DNA of 7,141 bases, from positions 1 to 7,141 of the forward strand of contig JAEOTU010000310.1 in assembly GCA_016839665.1 (NCBI GenBank). Reading direction: 5' to 3'. Below the pieces are notes generated by a model. The model did not search any database. It was not told where the DNA came from and worked only from the letters and a program-made list of their open reading frames with translations. The DNA comes from Candidatus Hodarchaeota archaeon (GTDB lineage Archaea > Asgardarchaeota > Heimdallarchaeia > Hodarchaeales > Hodarchaeaceae). Both the position numbers and the translations under genes were made by a program. Below are positions 92 to 7,141 of the stretch, in pieces (within the stretch, counting starts at the first letter, position 1; every line of letters begins with the position of its first letter).

Positions 92-1156
92 TTACAAATC
101 GTGTTCAGCTAAACTATAATAATAGAGGTACCCACGCATATCAGTATAATTTTCACGCCTTTTAACAAGACCTTTACTCATTAAAAGATTCAAGGCACTT
201 CTTATTGTCTTTTGATTTTGAACGTGTGTAATATCTATCAATTCATTAATAGTAAATGGTTTCTCATTATCTTTTAACACATAAAGAATGAATTTTGCTG
301 TTGAGGTTAATGATTGAGTATCTTCAAAAGATAACTTAGCCTTTAATTTATTTTGAGGATGTGTTTTATTCCTTTTCTCAATAAATGAAATGAAGGAGAC
401 TGTATTTGGGGCTTTAGTTAATAAAAAGAATTTCTCTTTCGTTTTGAATTGGTGATTATCCACATTAATGACAAGAGGGAGAATTGATTCAGTTATTTCA
501 ACTTCTATTGTTGATTCTTGAGGAACAATTTGATGATGAGTGGTGATATTTCTTGAAGCTATTGAAATAATCTGGAATACTGAGGATTGAGGATTAATTA
601 ATGCTCCACCAAGATTAAAACTCATTGCAGTGGAGCCTGTTGGTGTACTAATAAGAATAGCGTTAGCAGAATCAGAACCATCAGCATATAGAGATTCATT
701 ATTAACTCTAATATCATATCTGATTCTTTTATTAATGGCCGATGAAGTTATATGAACATCATTTAATGCATTGTATAGCCTGTCACTGGTTTTCAATTGG
801 AGGAGTGATCTGGTATCCAGAACATATTCATTATCGAAATACTCCCTTAACGCCCATTTCAGATTGTTTAAAGTAACTTGGGAAAAAAATGAATTATCCC
901 CAGGGAGTTCAATACATAGCAGAGGAGGAAGATTTTCGAATTCTCTAACTACGTTTAGAACATCATCGTCATGAATGCAAAGAAAACAATCAAAATCTAA
1001 CTCATTAGGAGATAAATTTTTGGAATCTAACTGATGTAGTTCAAAATTCTTATCCTTAGATCCTAAATTATCAATTGTACTGGTTATAAATTCAATCTCA
1101 AATTCAGAGATCATATCTGATTTTATAAGGGCGAGTTTAATTAGACTATCACTCAT
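92..1156 (-). CDS. NAD-kinase-fold protein with degenerate active site fused to a C-terminal winged helix
   Basis: 354 residues, ATG start, TAA stop. Residues about 55-260 follow the ATP-NAD kinase (PpnK/NadK) plan. The best-kept block is TPTGSTAMSFNLGG (171-184), followed by INP and IASRNITTHHQIVP, matching the family's TPTGSTAYS..GG and IaPh..t.RP.v.P blocks. An ALNDVHI segment (130-136) stands where ALNEv.i is usual. Several key positions are altered: the GGDGT loop reads HDDDV (62-66, Asp kept, glycines lost), the DG before TPTGST reads NA (165-166), and the later DGq reads DN (233-234). Residues about 276-350 form a winged helix (tAKFILYVLKD, then TINELIDIT, a recognition-helix-like TIRSALNLLMSKGLVKR, and a Tyr-rich wing). 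Typical NAD kinases are about 250-300 aa and lack this tail. It may be a weak kinase, or more likely a regulator sensing NAD(P) or ATP; DNA binding is inferred. It lies 31 nt downstream of the interrupted hydrolase gene on the same strand. No clear Shine-Dalgarno motif precedes the start. Confidence 0.8.
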   Translation of the reverse strand: MSDSLIKLALIKSDMISEFEIEFITSTIDNLGSKDKNFELHQLDSKNLSPNELDFDCFLCIHDDDVLNVVREFENLPPLLCIELPGDNSFFSQVTLNNLKWALREYFDNEYVLDTRSLLQLKTSDRLYNALNDVHITSSAINKRIRYDIRVNNESLYADGSDSANAILISTPTGSTAMSFNLGGALINPQSSVFQIISIASRNITTHHQIVPQESTIEVEITESILPLVINVDNHQFKTKEKFFLLTKAPNTVSFISFIEKRNKTHPQNKLKAKLSFEDTQSLTSTAKFILYVLKDNEKPFTINELIDITHVQNQKTIRSALNLLMSKGLVKRRENYTDMRGYLYYYSLAEHDL

Positions 1157-1187: not shown

Positions 1188-2582
1188 TCATCCTCTTACT
1201 TTATGATACAGATTTCTTTCAATAAGGAGATCGATATCACCTGTTTCACGAATTATAAACTTGATTGGTTCTATCATTCCCATATTGTAAGAGTAAAACT
1301 CGTTATTATCAATGGTTCTATTTTTAGGAATCAATGGGATATTGTCATCTATAAATTCAGCCACCTTCAGCTCGAAGAAGAGCATCCCTTCTTTTAGGGT
1401 TATTTTGGGATTAAAGATCTTACTATAACTCGTGTATTACCCAACAAACTTTTCAAACTTTTTCTGTACTTTTAAAAAGGGAATTTCAGCCTCAATATCC
1501 TTTCCCAACATCATTGCAAGTATAGCTTGACCAAATACGTCTAGAGGCGCAATTCCATTATTAGCTACAAGAGCAACTCCAAGTGATACATCAGGGAGAA
1601 AACCGATATAAGCACCAGAAACAAGTGTACTACCACCGTGGCCAATTAATTTATGCCCAAAAAAGTCTTCAGTGATACCCCATCCATAACCATACCCAAA
1701 ATCCCCGTACATCCCATGATCTCTCTTTGTACCCTATTGAATAACATGCATATCTTGGGTTGACTTTTGGTTAAGGATCTTTTTCCCTTTGTACGTCCCT
1801 CCGTTCATTACCATTATTAAGTAATTACCTAGATCGGTTCCTGAAGAAAATACTCCACCAGCTCCTTTTGCAACTCTATCAAACATATGGTTAGTAGGTT
1901 CGATCTTTCCCTGCGGTTTTATTAGGTATGCTGTTCCTGTATTGGGATCCTTTTCAAACTCCTCCTCCTTAAGTGCGGAACGATTCATTTCTAATGGTAC
2001 CAAGATTTTCTGTTTGATATAATCTTCAAATTGCATACCACTGATCTTTTCAATCACCATAGCTAGCAAAGCATACCCACCATTAAAATAAAAGAAATAC
2101 TCACCTGGTGTAAAGCGTACTTCTTTTGATGCTCCATTAAAAAATCGAAGAACATCAGCACCAGTACTTAGTGGGATGTAAGTTTCTGCATCTAAACATT
2201 CACGAGCAATTACTGTTTCAGCTGATGCTAAATTTGGAATACCAGAAGTATGTGACATTAAATGCCGAACTGTTATTGGATTCTCTGTATTACCTAAAGT
2301 AAAAGGAATGTATTTTGAAATTGGATCTTCGAGATTTAATTGTCCTGCTTCAGCTAACTGCATCACCGCCAAACAGGTGAAAGATTTGGTTACAGAACCT
2401 ATCCCGAATAGAGTGTTAGAGTCGACTGGTAATTTCTTTTTCAAGTCACGAGCCCTAAACCCATTAGAATAGATTATTTGATGATCTTTGATTATAGCTA
2501 TAGCGAGTCCTGGAATTTAACTTTGTTGCATTAAAGGAGGAATTCTTAATTCAAAATTAGTTACTAATTCAGATATTGACAT
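1188..2582 (-). pseudogene. Serine beta-lactamase-family hydrolase interrupted by three in-frame stops
   Basis: From ATG at 2582 to TGA at 1188-1190 one frame of 464 codons runs with no frameshift but contains TAA (codon 22, 2517-2519), TAG (codon 283, 1734-1736) and TAA (codon 382, 1437-1439). Conceptual translation gives a complete class C beta-lactamase/penicillin-binding-like hydrolase. It has the N-terminal IPGLAIAIIKDHQIIYSNGF strand, the nucleophile motif S63-V-T-K66, RHLMSHTSGIP, Y165-F-N167, and H315-G-G317 in place of KTG, then a C-terminal beta domain (PLIPKNRT..., ending NLYHKVRG). The full length fits this family, which hydrolyses peptides, esters or lactams. No signal peptide is seen, so a cytoplasmic location is likely. 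Neighbouring genes end normally at TAA or TGA, so a genome-wide code change is unlikely. The likeliest reading is a young pseudogene. Each stop is one change from Lys, Gln or Glu codons. Partial products from internal starts (TTG 2444, ATG 1712, ATG 1385) would each lack part of the fold. Confidence 0.85.
1198..1206 (-). promoter_or_regulatory. Weak TATA-like element for the NAD-kinase-like gene
   Basis: On the minus strand, TATCATAAAGTAAG lies about 42-50 nt before the ATG at 1156, the same spacing as the other candidate promoters in the window. It sits inside the last codons of the interrupted hydrolase gene. If real, the NAD-kinase-like gene is transcribed independently of that damaged upstream gene. 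The match is poor. Confidence 0.25.
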
Positions 2583-2624
2583 TTTATTAACTCTCTAATC
2601 AGTCATTTTTGACTCAAAAAGGTG

Positions 2625-2733: not shown

Positions 2734-4443
2734 TTAGACCAGATAGTCTTTGGTAGGTGTTCGCTTCTTTAAAACGAGAACATAGAAAACGAGAGTTATG
2801 AGAGTACCCATTATTACTTCAGGAAGAACATCGGTCAATGTCCGTTTGTCTAATATAAGACTGATAAAGTCAAAATAGCCAAAGGGAGTCAAAAATCGTA
2901 ACCAAGTGAGATCGCTCCCAGGTAGAAAAGCAATGAAAATTATGAGGACAAAAAATACATATCCGATCATTAAGGTTTTCAGGGCATGTCTAGAGGGGAC
3001 AAGAAGTGCGAGGGAGAGAAAGAAAACAAAGATAACACAGTAACCCCAAATGAACACCAAATAACTTGACAACGTGAGAATAAAATCCGAGAAGATTCCA
3101 CGAGCCGCTTGCATAATAAAGAGTGTTATCATGTTAGCTAGAGCGACAATAATGAAATAGATCAGTGCTGCGATAGTTCGGCCAAAAAAAATCCGTGAAT
3201 CAGTCTTTGGAAAAGTCCACGTGATTTCAGCATACCTCTTTTTATAATCACGCATTATAATGTCATAAATGACGATGAGAAAGAAGGGAGCAATGATCAT
3301 CCACGAGAAACTGAATATTTCAAACGCAAGATAAGTTTCTAACGTAATTGGAAGATCCATAAGACTATTCCCAAAAAGCAACGACTGCATAAACGGCATA
3401 TTGAAGCTCCGCAAGAGTTCAGCAATCTCTCCTTCTTGATACATTCCCATGACATATAAGGAATAGAATATCATAAAACCGAAGAAGATAATGAAGATAG
3501 TTGCATTGGAATGTAATTGATCTCTAACTACAGGGAATCTCCAGCCTAATCTCCCAAGTAATTTATCCATGGGAGTGCGAATGCGGGATAATTTTGATTG
3601 TGATTTTGTCTGGTCTAGTTTTGCTGTTTCTTCAATAATCGTTTGTTGTTGGACTCCTTTTTCCAGAAAATCCTTTCTATGTAATAAGAGAATGGATGCG
3701 ACGATTAAAATGACGACAACAATTATGACTGATAGAATGTACTCTTCATTCCATGATCCTGACAAACCATTGTTTACAACTTTTGCTTGGGAAAACAGAC
3801 TTAACTGACGAAGGAAATCAAGATCTTCTACTTGATTTGCTGTTAAGTCCGCCACAATTGAAAAGATAATATACAACCCACTGATTGCATACCCCGTATT
3901 CTTTGAGAAATTAATAGTACTTCCAAACGCAGTGAGAAATGCGATAGCTACTACAAGTAAACTTGCTAGAACAAAACAGATAGTAATATTTGGGACAGCA
4001 TCCCAAGCATCATTGAAGTAGAGCAAGCCAAGAGACACAATGTAGCTGGGGAGTGAAACTAAACCAATTAACACAATGACAATGAATGAATTTTCTAGAA
4101 AGGATACTGTTAGAGATTTTGGAGTAGAAAAGAGAATTTCCTTTCCATCTTTTTCGTTGATTGGTAACAAGTTACTTCCGAGAAATACGCCCGCTACAGG
4201 TAGATACAAAGAAAGACTGAATCCACAGAAAAATATCAACCAAAGAGCGAATCCAGGATTGTCAGTTGGAAAGTCACCAAGGAATGTCATAAGTTGGATG
4301 AACTCTATTAAAGCATCTTCTCCTGGATAAAACATAGATATACCGATTATTAATGAAACATAAAGGAAGATAGCTAATCCCACAACTGTTCGATGTCGAA
4401 AACTATGAAGATAGAACCGCTTAACTAGCTTTGAAAAGCTCAT
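2734..4443 (-). CDS. ABC-2 type exporter permease, about 12 TM, internally duplicated
   Basis: 569 residues, very hydrophobic. About twelve membrane segments are visible near residues 19-39, 66-90, 119-142, 153-174, 184-203, 236-255, then 314-334, 372-396, 422-445, 453-482, 488-508 and 540-558. A polar linker (256-312, rich in K, Q, T) separates the two six-TM halves. The halves resemble each other: EKDGKEILFSTPKS (97-110) parallels KKRYAEITWTFPKTDS (401-416), and DLDFLRQLSLFSQAK (207-221) parallels DLTWLRFLTPFGYF (511-524). Most ABC-2 permeases have one six-TM unit and dimerise, so this one may supply the whole membrane pore. Its ATG overlaps the stop of the ATPase gene (ATGA, 4440-4443), indicating translational coupling. 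It should export its substrate from the cytoplasm using that ATPase. The substrate is unknown. The gene ends with TAA. A nucleotide-binding domain is absent, as expected. Confidence 0.9.
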   Translation of the reverse strand: MSFSKLVKRFYLHSFRHRTVVGLAIFLYVSLIIGISMFYPGEDALIEFIQLMTFLGDFPTDNPGFALWLIFFCGFSLSLYLPVAGVFLGSNLLPINEKDGKEILFSTPKSLTVSFLENSFIVIVLIGLVSLPSYIVSLGLLYFNDAWDAVPNITICFVLASLLVVAIAFLTAFGSTINFSKNTGYAISGLYIIFSIVADLTANQVEDLDFLRQLSLFSQAKVVNNGLSGSWNEEYILSVIIVVVILIVASILLLHRKDFLEKGVQQQTIIEETAKLDQTKSQSKLSRIRTPMDKLLGRLGWRFPVVRDQLHSNATIFIIFFGFMIFYSLYVMGMYQEGEIAELLRSFNMPFMQSLLFGNSLMDLPITLETYLAFEIFSFSWMIIAPFFLIVIYDIIMRDYKKRYAEITWTFPKTDSRIFFGRTIAALIYFIIVALANMITLFIMQAARGIFSDFILTLSSYLVFIWGYCVIFVFFLSLALLVPSRHALKTLMIGYVFFVLIIFIAFLPGSDLTWLRFLTPFGYFDFISLILDKRTLTDVLPEVIMGTLITLVFYVLVLKKRTPTKDYLV

Positions 4444-5339
4444 CTTGCTTCCTCTTCTTGCCCTTTATAGAACTGTAAGAAGTAATCCTCAAGACTAGCG
4501 GGAGGAAAAACGATTTCTTCTGGTTCCATTGGAATGAGAACCTCAAGATATTGTTTGATGGAGTCTGTTTGACGTACGAGAATACGTGCCCGATTGTCAT
4601 CCAGTTCTAGTAAATGATCTCCGAGTGTTTGAAGCTGATCTTGGTTTGGTTTACGAAGAGTTACTTCAAGAATTCTTGAAACCTCTTTGTTAAGCCTATC
4701 CACGTCTACAACGTTAATTAGATGACCATCCCTCACAATTCCAACACGGTCACAGATACGTTGAACTTCAGAAAGGTTGTGACTACTGAAAAATATTGTC
4801 TTACCCTGACTTTTTGCATCAAGAATAAGATTATAAGTCTCCTGTTGAAGAAGAGGATCGAGTCCAGTAGTTGGTTCATCAAGGATCAACACGTCAGGAT
4901 CGTGCATAAAGGCAGCAATAATACTGACCTTCTGTTTGTTTCCTTTTGATAATTCTCCTATTTTCTTTTTTACTGGAAGATCAAAGAGTTGAACTAATTC
5001 CTTTCGTCTAGGACTTGGAATACCACGCATACTTTCGACATATGTCAAGAAATCATCGGCAGTATAATTTTCGGGAAGAAGTCCCGCTTCTGTAATGTAT
5101 CCAATATTCTCACGAAGCTTGGGATTTGACCGCTCCACTTTTCCACCATTAATCCAAATTTCTCCTTCAGTAGGCAAGAGAATATTCATCATACAGCGAA
5201 TTGTTGTGGTTTTTCCCGCTCCATTAGGTCCGAGAAAGCCGAAAATTTCCCCACTGAATATTTCAAGATCCAAATTCTCAATACCACGGTTTTTACCGTA
5301 ATATTTGGTTAAATTTTGTATTTTAATTTTCGTTTCCAT
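4440..5339 (-). CDS. ABC exporter ATP-binding protein (CcmA/ABC-2 class)
   Basis: 299 residues from ATG at 5339. All ATPase motifs are present: Walker A GPNGAGKTT (37-45), a Q-loop position occupied by Glu84 (IGYITE), signature LSKGNKQK (130-137), Walker B VLILDEP (150-156), D-loop GLD (159-161) and switch His187 (SSHNLS). The LSKG-x-KQ signature is typical of ATPases paired with ABC-2 exporters. The C-terminal 90 residues form the extra domain common in this group, ending in a SLEDYFLQFY motif. It powers the permease encoded immediately downstream (4-nt overlap). The frame is open upstream to a TTG at 5387, but those 16 residues (MRENCYNHASCRIVKK) do not resemble the family N-terminus, whereas METKIKIQNLTKYYG does, so ATG 5339 is preferred. 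Regulation is probably through the shared region with the divergent GbsR-like gene. The transported compound cannot be told. Confidence 0.93.
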   Translation of the reverse strand: METKIKIQNLTKYYGKNRGIENLDLEIFSGEIFGFLGPNGAGKTTTIRCMMNILLPTEGEIWINGGKVERSNPKLRENIGYITEAGLLPENYTADDFLTYVESMRGIPSPRRKELVQLFDLPVKKKIGELSKGNKQKVSIIAAFMHDPDVLILDEPTTGLDPLLQQETYNLILDAKSQGKTIFFSSHNLSEVQRICDRVGIVRDGHLINVVDVDRLNKEVSRILEVTLRKPNQDQLQTLGDHLLELDDNRARILVRQTDSIKQYLEVLIPMEPEEIVFPPASLEDYFLQFYKGQEEEAR

Positions 5340-5410
5340 TTTTTTCACAATTCTGCAACTTGCATGATTGTAGCAATTTTCTCTCAATTCTGTGCGAGAC
5401 TAGTTTTATT

Positions 5411-5497: not shown

Positions 5498-6055
5498 ATG
5501 ACGGATACTAAATCAAATTCCTCTGAAAAGAAGTTAATGGAATTTAAAAACGATATTGTCTTGCTTTTTGAAGAACTTTGGGCTTTAAGAGGAAATGATC
5601 CGATCGCAGGCAGATTGTATGCGTTCATTATCCTCAGCGAAAAGCCCTTGACGCAAAGAGAGTTAGAAAACACCTCTGGCTATTCGCGTGGACAGGTTTC
5701 CAAAACGCTTAAATTCCTTGAACATTCTCTTCTAATCACGAAAAGTCGGCAACCTGGTTATCGTGAGAAATTATATCATGTTGGATCCGAATCTTTTCTT
5801 AAGACATTTTCTGAGCGGATGAAAACTGGTCTCGATTTTCTTCGGCAAAAATTAGTATCGTTAGATGATGGAATCGCGGCATGGAAAGAGTTACCGAAAT
5901 CAATCCAAGACTCAAGTGAAGCTCAACGTATTAGGGATGTTGGGTTGATGTTCCGCACTTATTATTCATTTTACCTTAATACAATGGACGACGTTATTGA
6001 AAAAGTAGAAAGTGAGATCAAGAAAATAGAAAAAGAAATTAAAAATAAGATCTAA
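5498..6055 (+). CDS. GbsR/MarR-type winged-helix transcriptional regulator
   Basis: 185 residues, ATG start, TAA stop. Residues about 14-90 follow the GbsR pattern: a lead helix (LLFEELWALRGNDPIAGRLY), LSEKPLTQRELENTSGYSRG with SRGQVSKTLKFLEH as recognition helix (about 60-76), and the wing TKSRQPGYREKLYHV. Residues about 95-150 should form the helical dimer interface, and the tail (about 163-185) is a charged Glu/Lys helix that could form a coiled coil. GbsR-family proteins are dimeric DNA-binding repressors; the Bacillus founder controls glycine betaine genes. The gene is divergent from the ABC exporter operon, with a palindrome and tandem repeats between, so it probably controls the exporter and perhaps itself. 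No extra ligand domain is visible. A broader MarR or ArsR-like label is the main alternative. Confidence 0.87.
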   Translation: MTDTKSNSSEKKLMEFKNDIVLLFEELWALRGNDPIAGRLYAFIILSEKPLTQRELENTSGYSRGQVSKTLKFLEHSLLITKSRQPGYREKLYHVGSESFLKTFSERMKTGLDFLRQKLVSLDDGIAAWKELPKSIQDSSEAQRIRDVGLMFRTYYSFYLNTMDDVIEKVESEIKKIEKEIKNKI

Positions 6056-6600: not shown

Positions 6601-7141
6601 ATGAGGATAACAAAGGATATCAGAGCAGAAATATTTGAACAATTAACCTCAGCTTGTCCTGACTTCAAAGATTATCAAATCAGTACGTTCACCAGGGTTT
6701 TAGGAGGAGCAGATACTACTATTTTCTCTTTCGATTTAATCTCAAAATCTAAAACGATTCCGTTTATATTAAGAATATTTCGTCCAAATTTCACTGAATC
6801 AGCAAAAAGAGAATTTCAAACCCTTAATAGGTTACATATTAGGGGATTGAAAGTTCCTAAACCGTATTTTTGGATTCCTAAATCAGCAAAACTAGGTTGT
6901 GCATATATTGTTATGGAGAGGATTAACGGAAAGCTACTAGCAGATGTACTACACGCTTTTCGATCTGATGAACGATTCTTACATCTCATTCATAAATTTA
7001 TCATCAATTTAGTTGCGATTCACTCCATAAAATTTTCAGACAGTTTCTCTTATCTTGCTTCCCTTAGTATAAGAGAAGATCCCCAAATTTTCTGCATAAC
7101 TGAACTCGCAAGACAAAAAAGAATAGTGGAGGAAAACAAGA
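6601..7141 (+). CDS. Aminoglycoside-phosphotransferase-like kinase, N-terminal part, runs off the window
   Basis: ATG at 6601 opens 180 codons to the window edge without a stop. The sequence follows the APH/choline kinase-like fold. There is a glycine-rich loop LGGADTTIFSF (34-44), FILRIF (55-60) where the ATP-binding strand usually carries vLR, and a likely helix-C Glu71 (KREFQTLNRL). VPKPYF (85-90) is followed by the hinge AYIVMERINGKLL (101-113) and the LVAIHS segment (137-142). The catalytic HxD loop and metal-binding Asp would lie beyond 7141, so activity cannot be judged. Relatives of about 300-350 aa phosphorylate small molecules such as aminoglycosides, macrolides, choline or homoserine; the substrate is unknown and a resistance role should not be assumed. 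An in-frame TAA just upstream of the start (6597-6599 region is non-coding; ATGACAGGCAAGTAA at 6585 is out of frame) leaves 6601 as the clear start. Confidence 0.78.
   Translation, partial: MRITKDIRAEIFEQLTSACPDFKDYQISTFTRVLGGADTTIFSFDLISKSKTIPFILRIFRPNFTESAKREFQTLNRLHIRGLKVPKPYFWIPKSAKLGCAYIVMERINGKLLADVLHAFRSDERFLHLIHKFIINLVAIHSIKFSDSFSYLASLSIREDPQIFCITELARQKRIVEENK

Follow-up and report, generated by a model that had tools for sequence, protein, structure and literature searches.

Comparison of sequences and gene neighbourhoods points to a family of archaeal proteins that were built from NAD kinase and that very probably sense NAD(P) and regulate NAD biosynthesis. One member is encoded at positions 92..1156 on the minus strand of a 7,141-nucleotide stretch of Hodarchaeota DNA, the whole of which we refer to as the window. 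By alignment and structural modelling, this open reading frame of 354 amino acids comprises a NAD-kinase fold with an eroded ATP-phosphate loop and a MarR-like winged helix. The window protein itself is likely to be a ligand-sensing, DNA-binding regulator derived from NAD kinase; that it controls NAD genes is a more tentative proposal. A sequence-only reading of the window had recognised the NAD-kinase fold with eroded loops joined to a winged helix, which Pfam, the alignment and the model all confirm, and had suggested that loss of catalysis together with gain of the winged helix produced a nucleotide-sensing regulator, an idea for which we find support at the level of the family.

Domain architecture and predicted fold

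The NAD-kinase-like domain occupies residues 1-262 (end approximate; 371..1156, on the minus strand like the other features of this gene). Pfam places NAD_kinase_C at residues 131-256 above the cut-off (E 2e-11) and a sub-threshold MarR_2 match at residues 283-341 (E 7.9e-5), and NCBIfam yields sub-threshold matches alone, to NAD kinase and Lrs14/Sta1. The Nudix fold differs from the NAD-kinase fold, and no Nudix domain is found among the Pfam matches up to E 1, all of which are to NAD_kinase_C and HTH-type DNA-binding families. In the AlphaFold2 model of the window protein, built with 19 family sequences (pLDDT 81), the NAD-kinase fold is followed by the element order of a winged helix, so that the winged helix expected from the sequence is indeed present in the predicted structure (residues 283-347, 116..310); the model of a Thorarchaeal member has the identical element order (pLDDT 86.8). 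With Foldseek and VIA-align, solved NAD kinases match the N-terminal part of the window-protein model; the VIA-align list hardly covers the winged helix, so that a lack of matches to it there is uninformative. When 20 winged helices of the family are combined into a profile, it finds MarR proteins and transcription factor E among PDB entries, with E values from 4.7e-5. The recognition helix predicted by DSSP of the AlphaFold2 model spans residues 315-327 (176..214), and D339-x-R341 (134..142), with Asp and Arg in 20/20 rows of the Hodarchaeal branch, corresponds to what we take to be the DxR wing motif of MarR proteins.

The window protein shares the NAD-kinase fold, the NE/ND motif and TPTGST with NadK (PF01513/PF20143; A. 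fulgidus 1suw, T. maritima 1yt5), but differs from it in lacking the GGDG loop and the DG and in carrying an additional winged helix. With MarR/Lrs14-type regulators it has in common a winged helix with a DxR wing, reflected in the sub-threshold MarR_2 and Lrs14 matches; here, however, the winged helix is attached to a putative sensor derived from NAD kinase.

Erosion of the active site and retention of the NAD pocket

The alignment covers 120 NAD kinases along with fusions from the Hodarchaeal branch (20) and from elsewhere (166); exact duplicates were removed and near-copies retained. GGDG is present in 120/120 NAD kinases as against 16 of the 161 fusions outside the Hodarchaeal branch whose loop could be read, where the variants include GSDR (55), GDTG (13) and GSDK (11), plus others. 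The window protein has HDDDV in place of GGDGT (residues 62-66, 959..973), a loop shorter by one residue, as it is in 20/20 Hodarchaeal rows, with D63 aligned to the catalytic Asp. The other side of the active site is largely retained. The Asn of NE, the Asp and Gly of DG, the GS of TPTGST and the late Asp and Gly are invariant in all 166 other fusions. In the window protein, the NE/ND motif is kept as N132-D133 (758..763) and TPTGSTA at residues 171-177 (626..646); the DG ahead of the latter is replaced by N165-A166 (659..664) and the late DG by D233-N234 (455..460). The Asp of the first DG is found in 166/166 other fusions and 120/120 NAD kinases, and is Asn in 20/20 Hodarchaeal rows, followed by A in 12, S in 5, G in 2 and Q in 1; Asn likewise follows the late Asp in 20/20. 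Residues D63, N132, D133, the GST of TPTGST, D233, D339 and R341 are each kept in all 20 rows. A single search had returned 20 further proteins of this branch (P0002-P0021, two of them short), and intact GGDG occurs in none of the 18 aligned with the window protein, so its close homologues do not have the normal loop that would have spoken against the sequence-only reading.

The DNA-binding side is similarly constrained. In the 166 non-Hodarchaeal fusions, the Arg and Thr of the recognition helix are invariant, and the wing has Arg in 166/166 and Asp in 165/166; in the Hodarchaeal branch, T317 is present in 20/20 rows and R319 in 19/20, and one recognition-helix position is Lys in this branch and Arg in the other fusions. 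Loss of the phosphate-donor side combined with retention of the NAD side is the pattern expected of a NAD(P) sensor devoid of catalysis. The sequence-only reading had left open a response to either NAD(P) or ATP: the former is supported at the level of the family, whereas responsiveness to ATP is unlikely, because the ATP-phosphate loop is precisely the part that has been lost.

It is improbable that the window protein is bifunctional, still phosphorylating NAD through an unusual loop while its winged helix provides autoregulation. Such an enzyme would fit the conservation of D63, N132, D133 and D233, and the 16 other fusions that retain GGDG, one of which is encoded by locus L038 in genome G003, indicate that some family members could be active kinases. 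Against this, the loop of the window protein has lost its glycines and one residue, the DG is lost too, and the catalytic Asp itself is gone in related clades with GDTG and GGAA loops. Moreover, the Hodarchaeota genome of a close relative carries an intact, separate NAD kinase, which, as judged from this relative, also weakens the objection that the fusion might be the only NAD kinase of its genome. Separate NAD kinases of fusion genomes keep GGDG in 20/20 cases fetched (20 of about 26 among the matches listed, out of 54 fusion genomes; two of the 20, with GGDGS, do not match the DG pattern used).

Distribution, annotation and evolution of the family

A search for the same two-domain order found relatives across archaea, and the window protein is accordingly not unique. 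A profile of 24 diverse fusions gave 7817 matches among all proteins, and all 120 of those listed align through the winged helix. Source names among the matches listed include Thorarchaeota (on which our label 'Thorarchaeal set' leans), Bathyarchaeota, Nitrososphaerales and Geothermarchaeota; a further search added Heimdallarchaeaceae and relatives in Vulcanisaeta, including the named isolate Vulcanisaeta moutnovskia 768-28, and Hodarchaeales are also represented. Judged by eye, two Vulcanisaeta proteins (P0287 and P0298) lack the DxR wing, which suggests that these members may recognise DNA in a different way. To assess co-occurrence, we used the genome of the close Hodarchaeota relative and 227 genomes of the same phylum, at least 54 of which have a match that extends through the winged helix, counting listed matches that reach profile position 343 or beyond and leaving out partial ones; 219/227 have some match to the branch profile. 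The Hodarchaeal-branch profile matches other fusions up to position ~345 of 350. The window protein and the other fusions thus share their domain order and are homologous along both domains, which is how we define the family.

Public records name family proteins variously as NAD kinase, sugar kinase or MarR regulator, and the few named proteins of the Hodarchaeal branch are labelled NAD kinase or come from Hodarchaeales/Heimdallarchaeota records. Owing to this mixed annotation, counts of archaeal NadK genes, and metabolic models with them, may be wrong.

The fusion of a close relative (locus L001) is 91% identical to the window protein over residues 163-353, the contig of the relative starting at this point. 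Over the 191 codons compared, dN is 0.042 and dS 0.367, and the resulting dN/dS of ~0.12 indicates purifying selection on the fusion gene. In a tree of 77 rows, the Hodarchaeal branch forms one clade (support 100/100) on a long stem of 1.46 changes per column, and the NAD kinases are set apart by a branch with 99/96 support, a topology that fits a single origin of the NadK/winged-helix fusion. Support for grouping the remaining fusions is only 86/49, so the Hodarchaeal branch is not firmly placed among the fusions. On this tree, the loop must have switched between the intact and the eroded state 7 times or more, and the catalytic Asp must have changed 4 times or more. As read from these sequences, the family would be a clear case of an enzyme that became a sensor by repeated loss of one half of its active site.

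Genomic neighbourhood

Neighbouring genes were read in 54 fusion-bearing Asgard genomes, the Hodarchaeota genome being represented by L001, which lacks the upstream side. The fusion is divergent from the quinolinate synthase gene nadA in 41 of the 54 (29 plus 12, by BLAST); examples of this nadA score above the cut-offs of PF02445 and TIGR00550. In five others (L041, L044, L045, L047 and L078), it adjoins an NAPRTase/QRPTase-like gene (Pfam on one example); no nadA was found in four of these five genomes, and the fifth, G177, has nadA elsewhere. The remaining eight comprise three Hodarchaeal genomes, G003 with its intact loop, L081 and L087, both with the fusion at a contig end, and L089 and L094, which have no such neighbour in the 755-1158 bases available upstream. 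Neither nadA nor NAPRTase adjoins the fusion at any of the four Hodarchaeal loci (the window, L001, L036 and L037), where the window shows the upstream side alone and L001 the downstream side alone.

Several further neighbours recur. A Band_7/SPFH gene lies downstream of the fusion in L001 (750-1604), L036 and L037, the fourth locus ending at the window edge, and is followed by a gene for a 314-aa protein with no Pfam match (Pfam was run on the L001 copies). A beta-CASP/metallo-beta-lactamase protein of ~717 aa (Pfam on one example, L043:624-2774) is encoded 3' of the fusion on the same strand in 15/38 loci and is possibly co-transcribed with it. In G003, the fusion with the intact loop is transcribed divergently from a gene for a protein with an iron-sulphur domain of the dihydroorotate-dehydrogenase-B type (L038:7469-8326), perhaps a subunit of an NAD(P)-linked oxidoreductase.

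The window itself contains, upstream of the fusion gene, a serine-hydrolase gene (1188-2600, minus strand; PF00144) with a sub-threshold Pab87_oct-like C-terminal piece. It lies in one frame with in-frame stops, TAG at 1734-1736, TAA at 1437-1439 and another near the N-terminus, and is either pseudogene-like or a possible case of stop-codon recoding. Beyond it are ABC permease-like and ATPase genes (2734-5387, minus strand) and a divergent regulator-like gene (5498-6055, plus strand) with sub-threshold CudC (NCBIfam) and MarR matches, which together look like an ordinary regulator-transporter set, and a gene for an APH-type phosphotransferase-family protein (6601-7140, plus strand; PF01636) that is cut by the window end.

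A candidate operator at nadA and nadE

The 41 intergenic regions between nadA and the fusion have in common a 13-bp palindrome, GGCAAnnnTTGCC, which is exact in 21, present with at most one mismatch in 34 and with at most two in 39; the corresponding means of 200 dinucleotide shuffles are 0.005, 0.235 and 2.975. L054 and L079 are counted as misses because over-long ORF starts hide exact sites there. In 16/41 regions, all from the Thorarchaeal set, the palindrome is accompanied by an imperfect second copy at a distance of 29-30 bp, and T/A-rich, TATA-like elements can be seen by eye near the palindromes. The five NAPRTase-linked loci have no GGCAAnnnTTGCC palindrome, and the salvage branch may therefore use another operator.

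Exact copies of GGCAAnnnTTGCC are rare genome-wide: eight genomes of the Thorarchaeal set contain 39, with 2-11 each, and 8 of the 39 are the fusion/nadA region itself. The flanks were read for 20 of the other exact sites, of which 14 lie inside ORFs, as chance sites would behave. Among the six outside, one precedes a second copy of nadA (in G219, 83 bp ahead), one precedes nadE by 65 bp, two precede one unknown gene and two are 8 bp before ORFs. Similar proteins of 112-120 aa without Pfam matches are encoded in G205 and G206 (L115:1689-2024 and L120:1802-2161); an exact GGCAAnnnTTGCC precedes each of the two genes by 103-113 bp, and they may be further members of the regulon. Sites with at most one mismatch occur upstream of nadE in 8/21 regions, where shuffles give 0.155 on average and 1 at most; these regions are the strong nadE matches from 27 genomes, 20 from the Thorarchaeal set plus G004. 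Five of the sites are at exactly -65, and the one at -284 (L150) is probably a chance occurrence. Eight of the 21 regions have no site even at two mismatches, and in Heimdallarchaeaceae, Hodarchaeales and G003 the count is 0/20 at that tolerance (21 loci tried, one of them lacking a usable start), which rules out nadE as a family-wide target beyond the Thorarchaeal set.

As a control, nadA was taken from 40 genomes outside the 54; its start could be located in 34, one with 13 bp upstream. The site is present in two of these 34 regions, from G208 and G209. G208 carries a fusion fragment at a contig end, and its exclusion leaves one of 33 fusion-less genomes with the site, as against 34/41 fusion genomes (Fisher p 5e-13, in a test that ignores kinship and assembly gaps and compares 400 bp in the control with the whole intergenic region). 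In G209 (L215), an exact palindrome lies 57 bp before nadA and no fusion was found nearby, for which an assembly gap, a moved gene or a recent loss may account.

Winged helices can also act as protein modules, and the MarR_2 match is below the Pfam cut-off; both points would be compatible with a pseudo-enzyme whose winged helix serves oligomerisation or protein binding and does not bind DNA. The near invariance of the recognition-helix and wing residues, however, and the fact that presence of the family tracks the palindrome at nadA, make this very improbable and favour a DNA-binding function.

The palindrome was not found in the Hodarchaeal branch. GGCAAnnnTTGCC with at most one mismatch occurs nowhere in the window and not near the fusion at the other Hodarchaeal loci, where a stray one-mismatch match in L036 is 4 kb off, and it is missing upstream of Hodarchaeal nadA and nadE. 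A search of eight upstream regions for another Hodarchaeal operator made of 5-bp half-site palindromes gave a largest count of 1, with shuffles mostly giving 2. A relaxed palindrome, RGCAANNNTTGCY, was also scanned for in 10 genomes, one of which (G065) has no fusion; with at least 18-42 sites per genome among the matches listed, it is too common to be informative and was dropped.

These differences raise a possible, if somewhat doubtful, alternative in which the Hodarchaeal branch has been re-purposed, keeping the DNA-binding architecture and acquiring another nucleotide-like ligand and another regulon, with no role in NAD(P) sensing or NAD-gene control. The long stem, the two Asn substitutions at the DG positions, the missing nadA linkage and palindrome, and the Band_7 gene downstream in every Hodarchaeal locus that extends far enough are all consistent with it. 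Nevertheless, N132, D133, GST and the late Asp are invariant in the branch, which suggests that the pocket is still selected for something similar, and loss of linkage does not equal loss of regulation in trans.

Discussion

For the family as a whole, regulation of NAD biosynthesis is the most likely function, given the linkage to nadA and NAPRTase, the shared palindrome, the nadE sites in trans and the control with fusion-less genomes. The proposal of a regulator made from the sequence alone is thereby strengthened on three counts: residues of the NAD pocket and of the DNA-contacting wing are invariant in a family where the ATP loop is free to vary; nadA is divergent from the fusion or NAPRTase adjacent to it, with the palindrome at nadA and, in part of one clade, at nadE; and the palindrome is nearly absent where no fusion was found. 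For the window branch, in which the NAD-gene link is not seen, we infer both the ligand and the targets.

The NAD-kinase domain is an oligomer in the enzyme. In the mechanism that we envisage, such an oligomer would bind NAD(P) with no use of ATP, ligand occupancy would alter the spacing between paired winged helices, and these would bind GGCAAnnnTTGCC at the nadA promoter and at the promoter of the fusion gene. Both promoters would most likely be repressed when NAD(P) is plentiful; in this proposal the protein would repress and not activate, and the ligand would perhaps act as co-repressor and not as inducer. In the Hodarchaeal branch, this machine would have been kept with a changed pocket and recognition helix, probably with altered ligand, operator and target set.

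Regulators derived from cofactor-related enzymes have precedents. NrtR resembles the fusion in being an enzyme fold turned sensor joined to an HTH, in adjoining nadA/B/C and in having a palindrome between regulator and target, and some NrtRs are devoid of catalysis (PMC6800001), but NrtR is bacterial, has a Nudix fold and responds to ADP-ribose (PMC6800001). NadR and NiaR are bacterial regulators of NAD genes that respond to metabolites of the NAD pathway (PMC6800001, PMC7713382); the ligand domains of NadR, an adenylyltransferase and a ribosylnicotinamide kinase (PMC6800001), are unlike that of the fusion, and so is that of NiaR. An archaeal parallel is RbkR (PMC8305020), a cofactor kinase with a DNA-binding domain that is both regulator and enzyme of its own pathway; it differs in being a riboflavin kinase with an N-terminal HTH that acts in the riboflavin pathway. 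In a phylogeny of NADK genes that includes Asgard sequences, the word 'fusion' is absent from the main text (PMC6675116). We found no description of a NAD-kinase/HTH protein or of an archaeal NAD regulator in the open-access literature, and hence, while enzyme-derived cofactor regulators are already known, an archaeal family derived from NadK appears to be undescribed there.

Hodarchaeales belong to the Asgard archaea and are frequently positioned close to the origin of eukaryotes. Taking the evidence together, we put forward, with less than even confidence, an undescribed, archaea-wide group of NAD(P)-sensing repressors that arose by one fusion and repeatedly lost the ATP loop but kept the NAD pocket, and that in Hodarchaeales would have been re-tuned, with a regulon untied from nadA. 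Included in this same cautious proposal is that the change of DG to NA would make the Hodarchaeales protein sense a different pyridine nucleotide. The family, whose members include proteins of uncultured Asgard archaea, is a concrete candidate for regulating NAD homeostasis in archaea, for which a sensor domain can be named and an operator and targets predicted; if the archaea-wide reading is true, it would correspond in archaea to the bacterial NadR, NiaR and NrtR.
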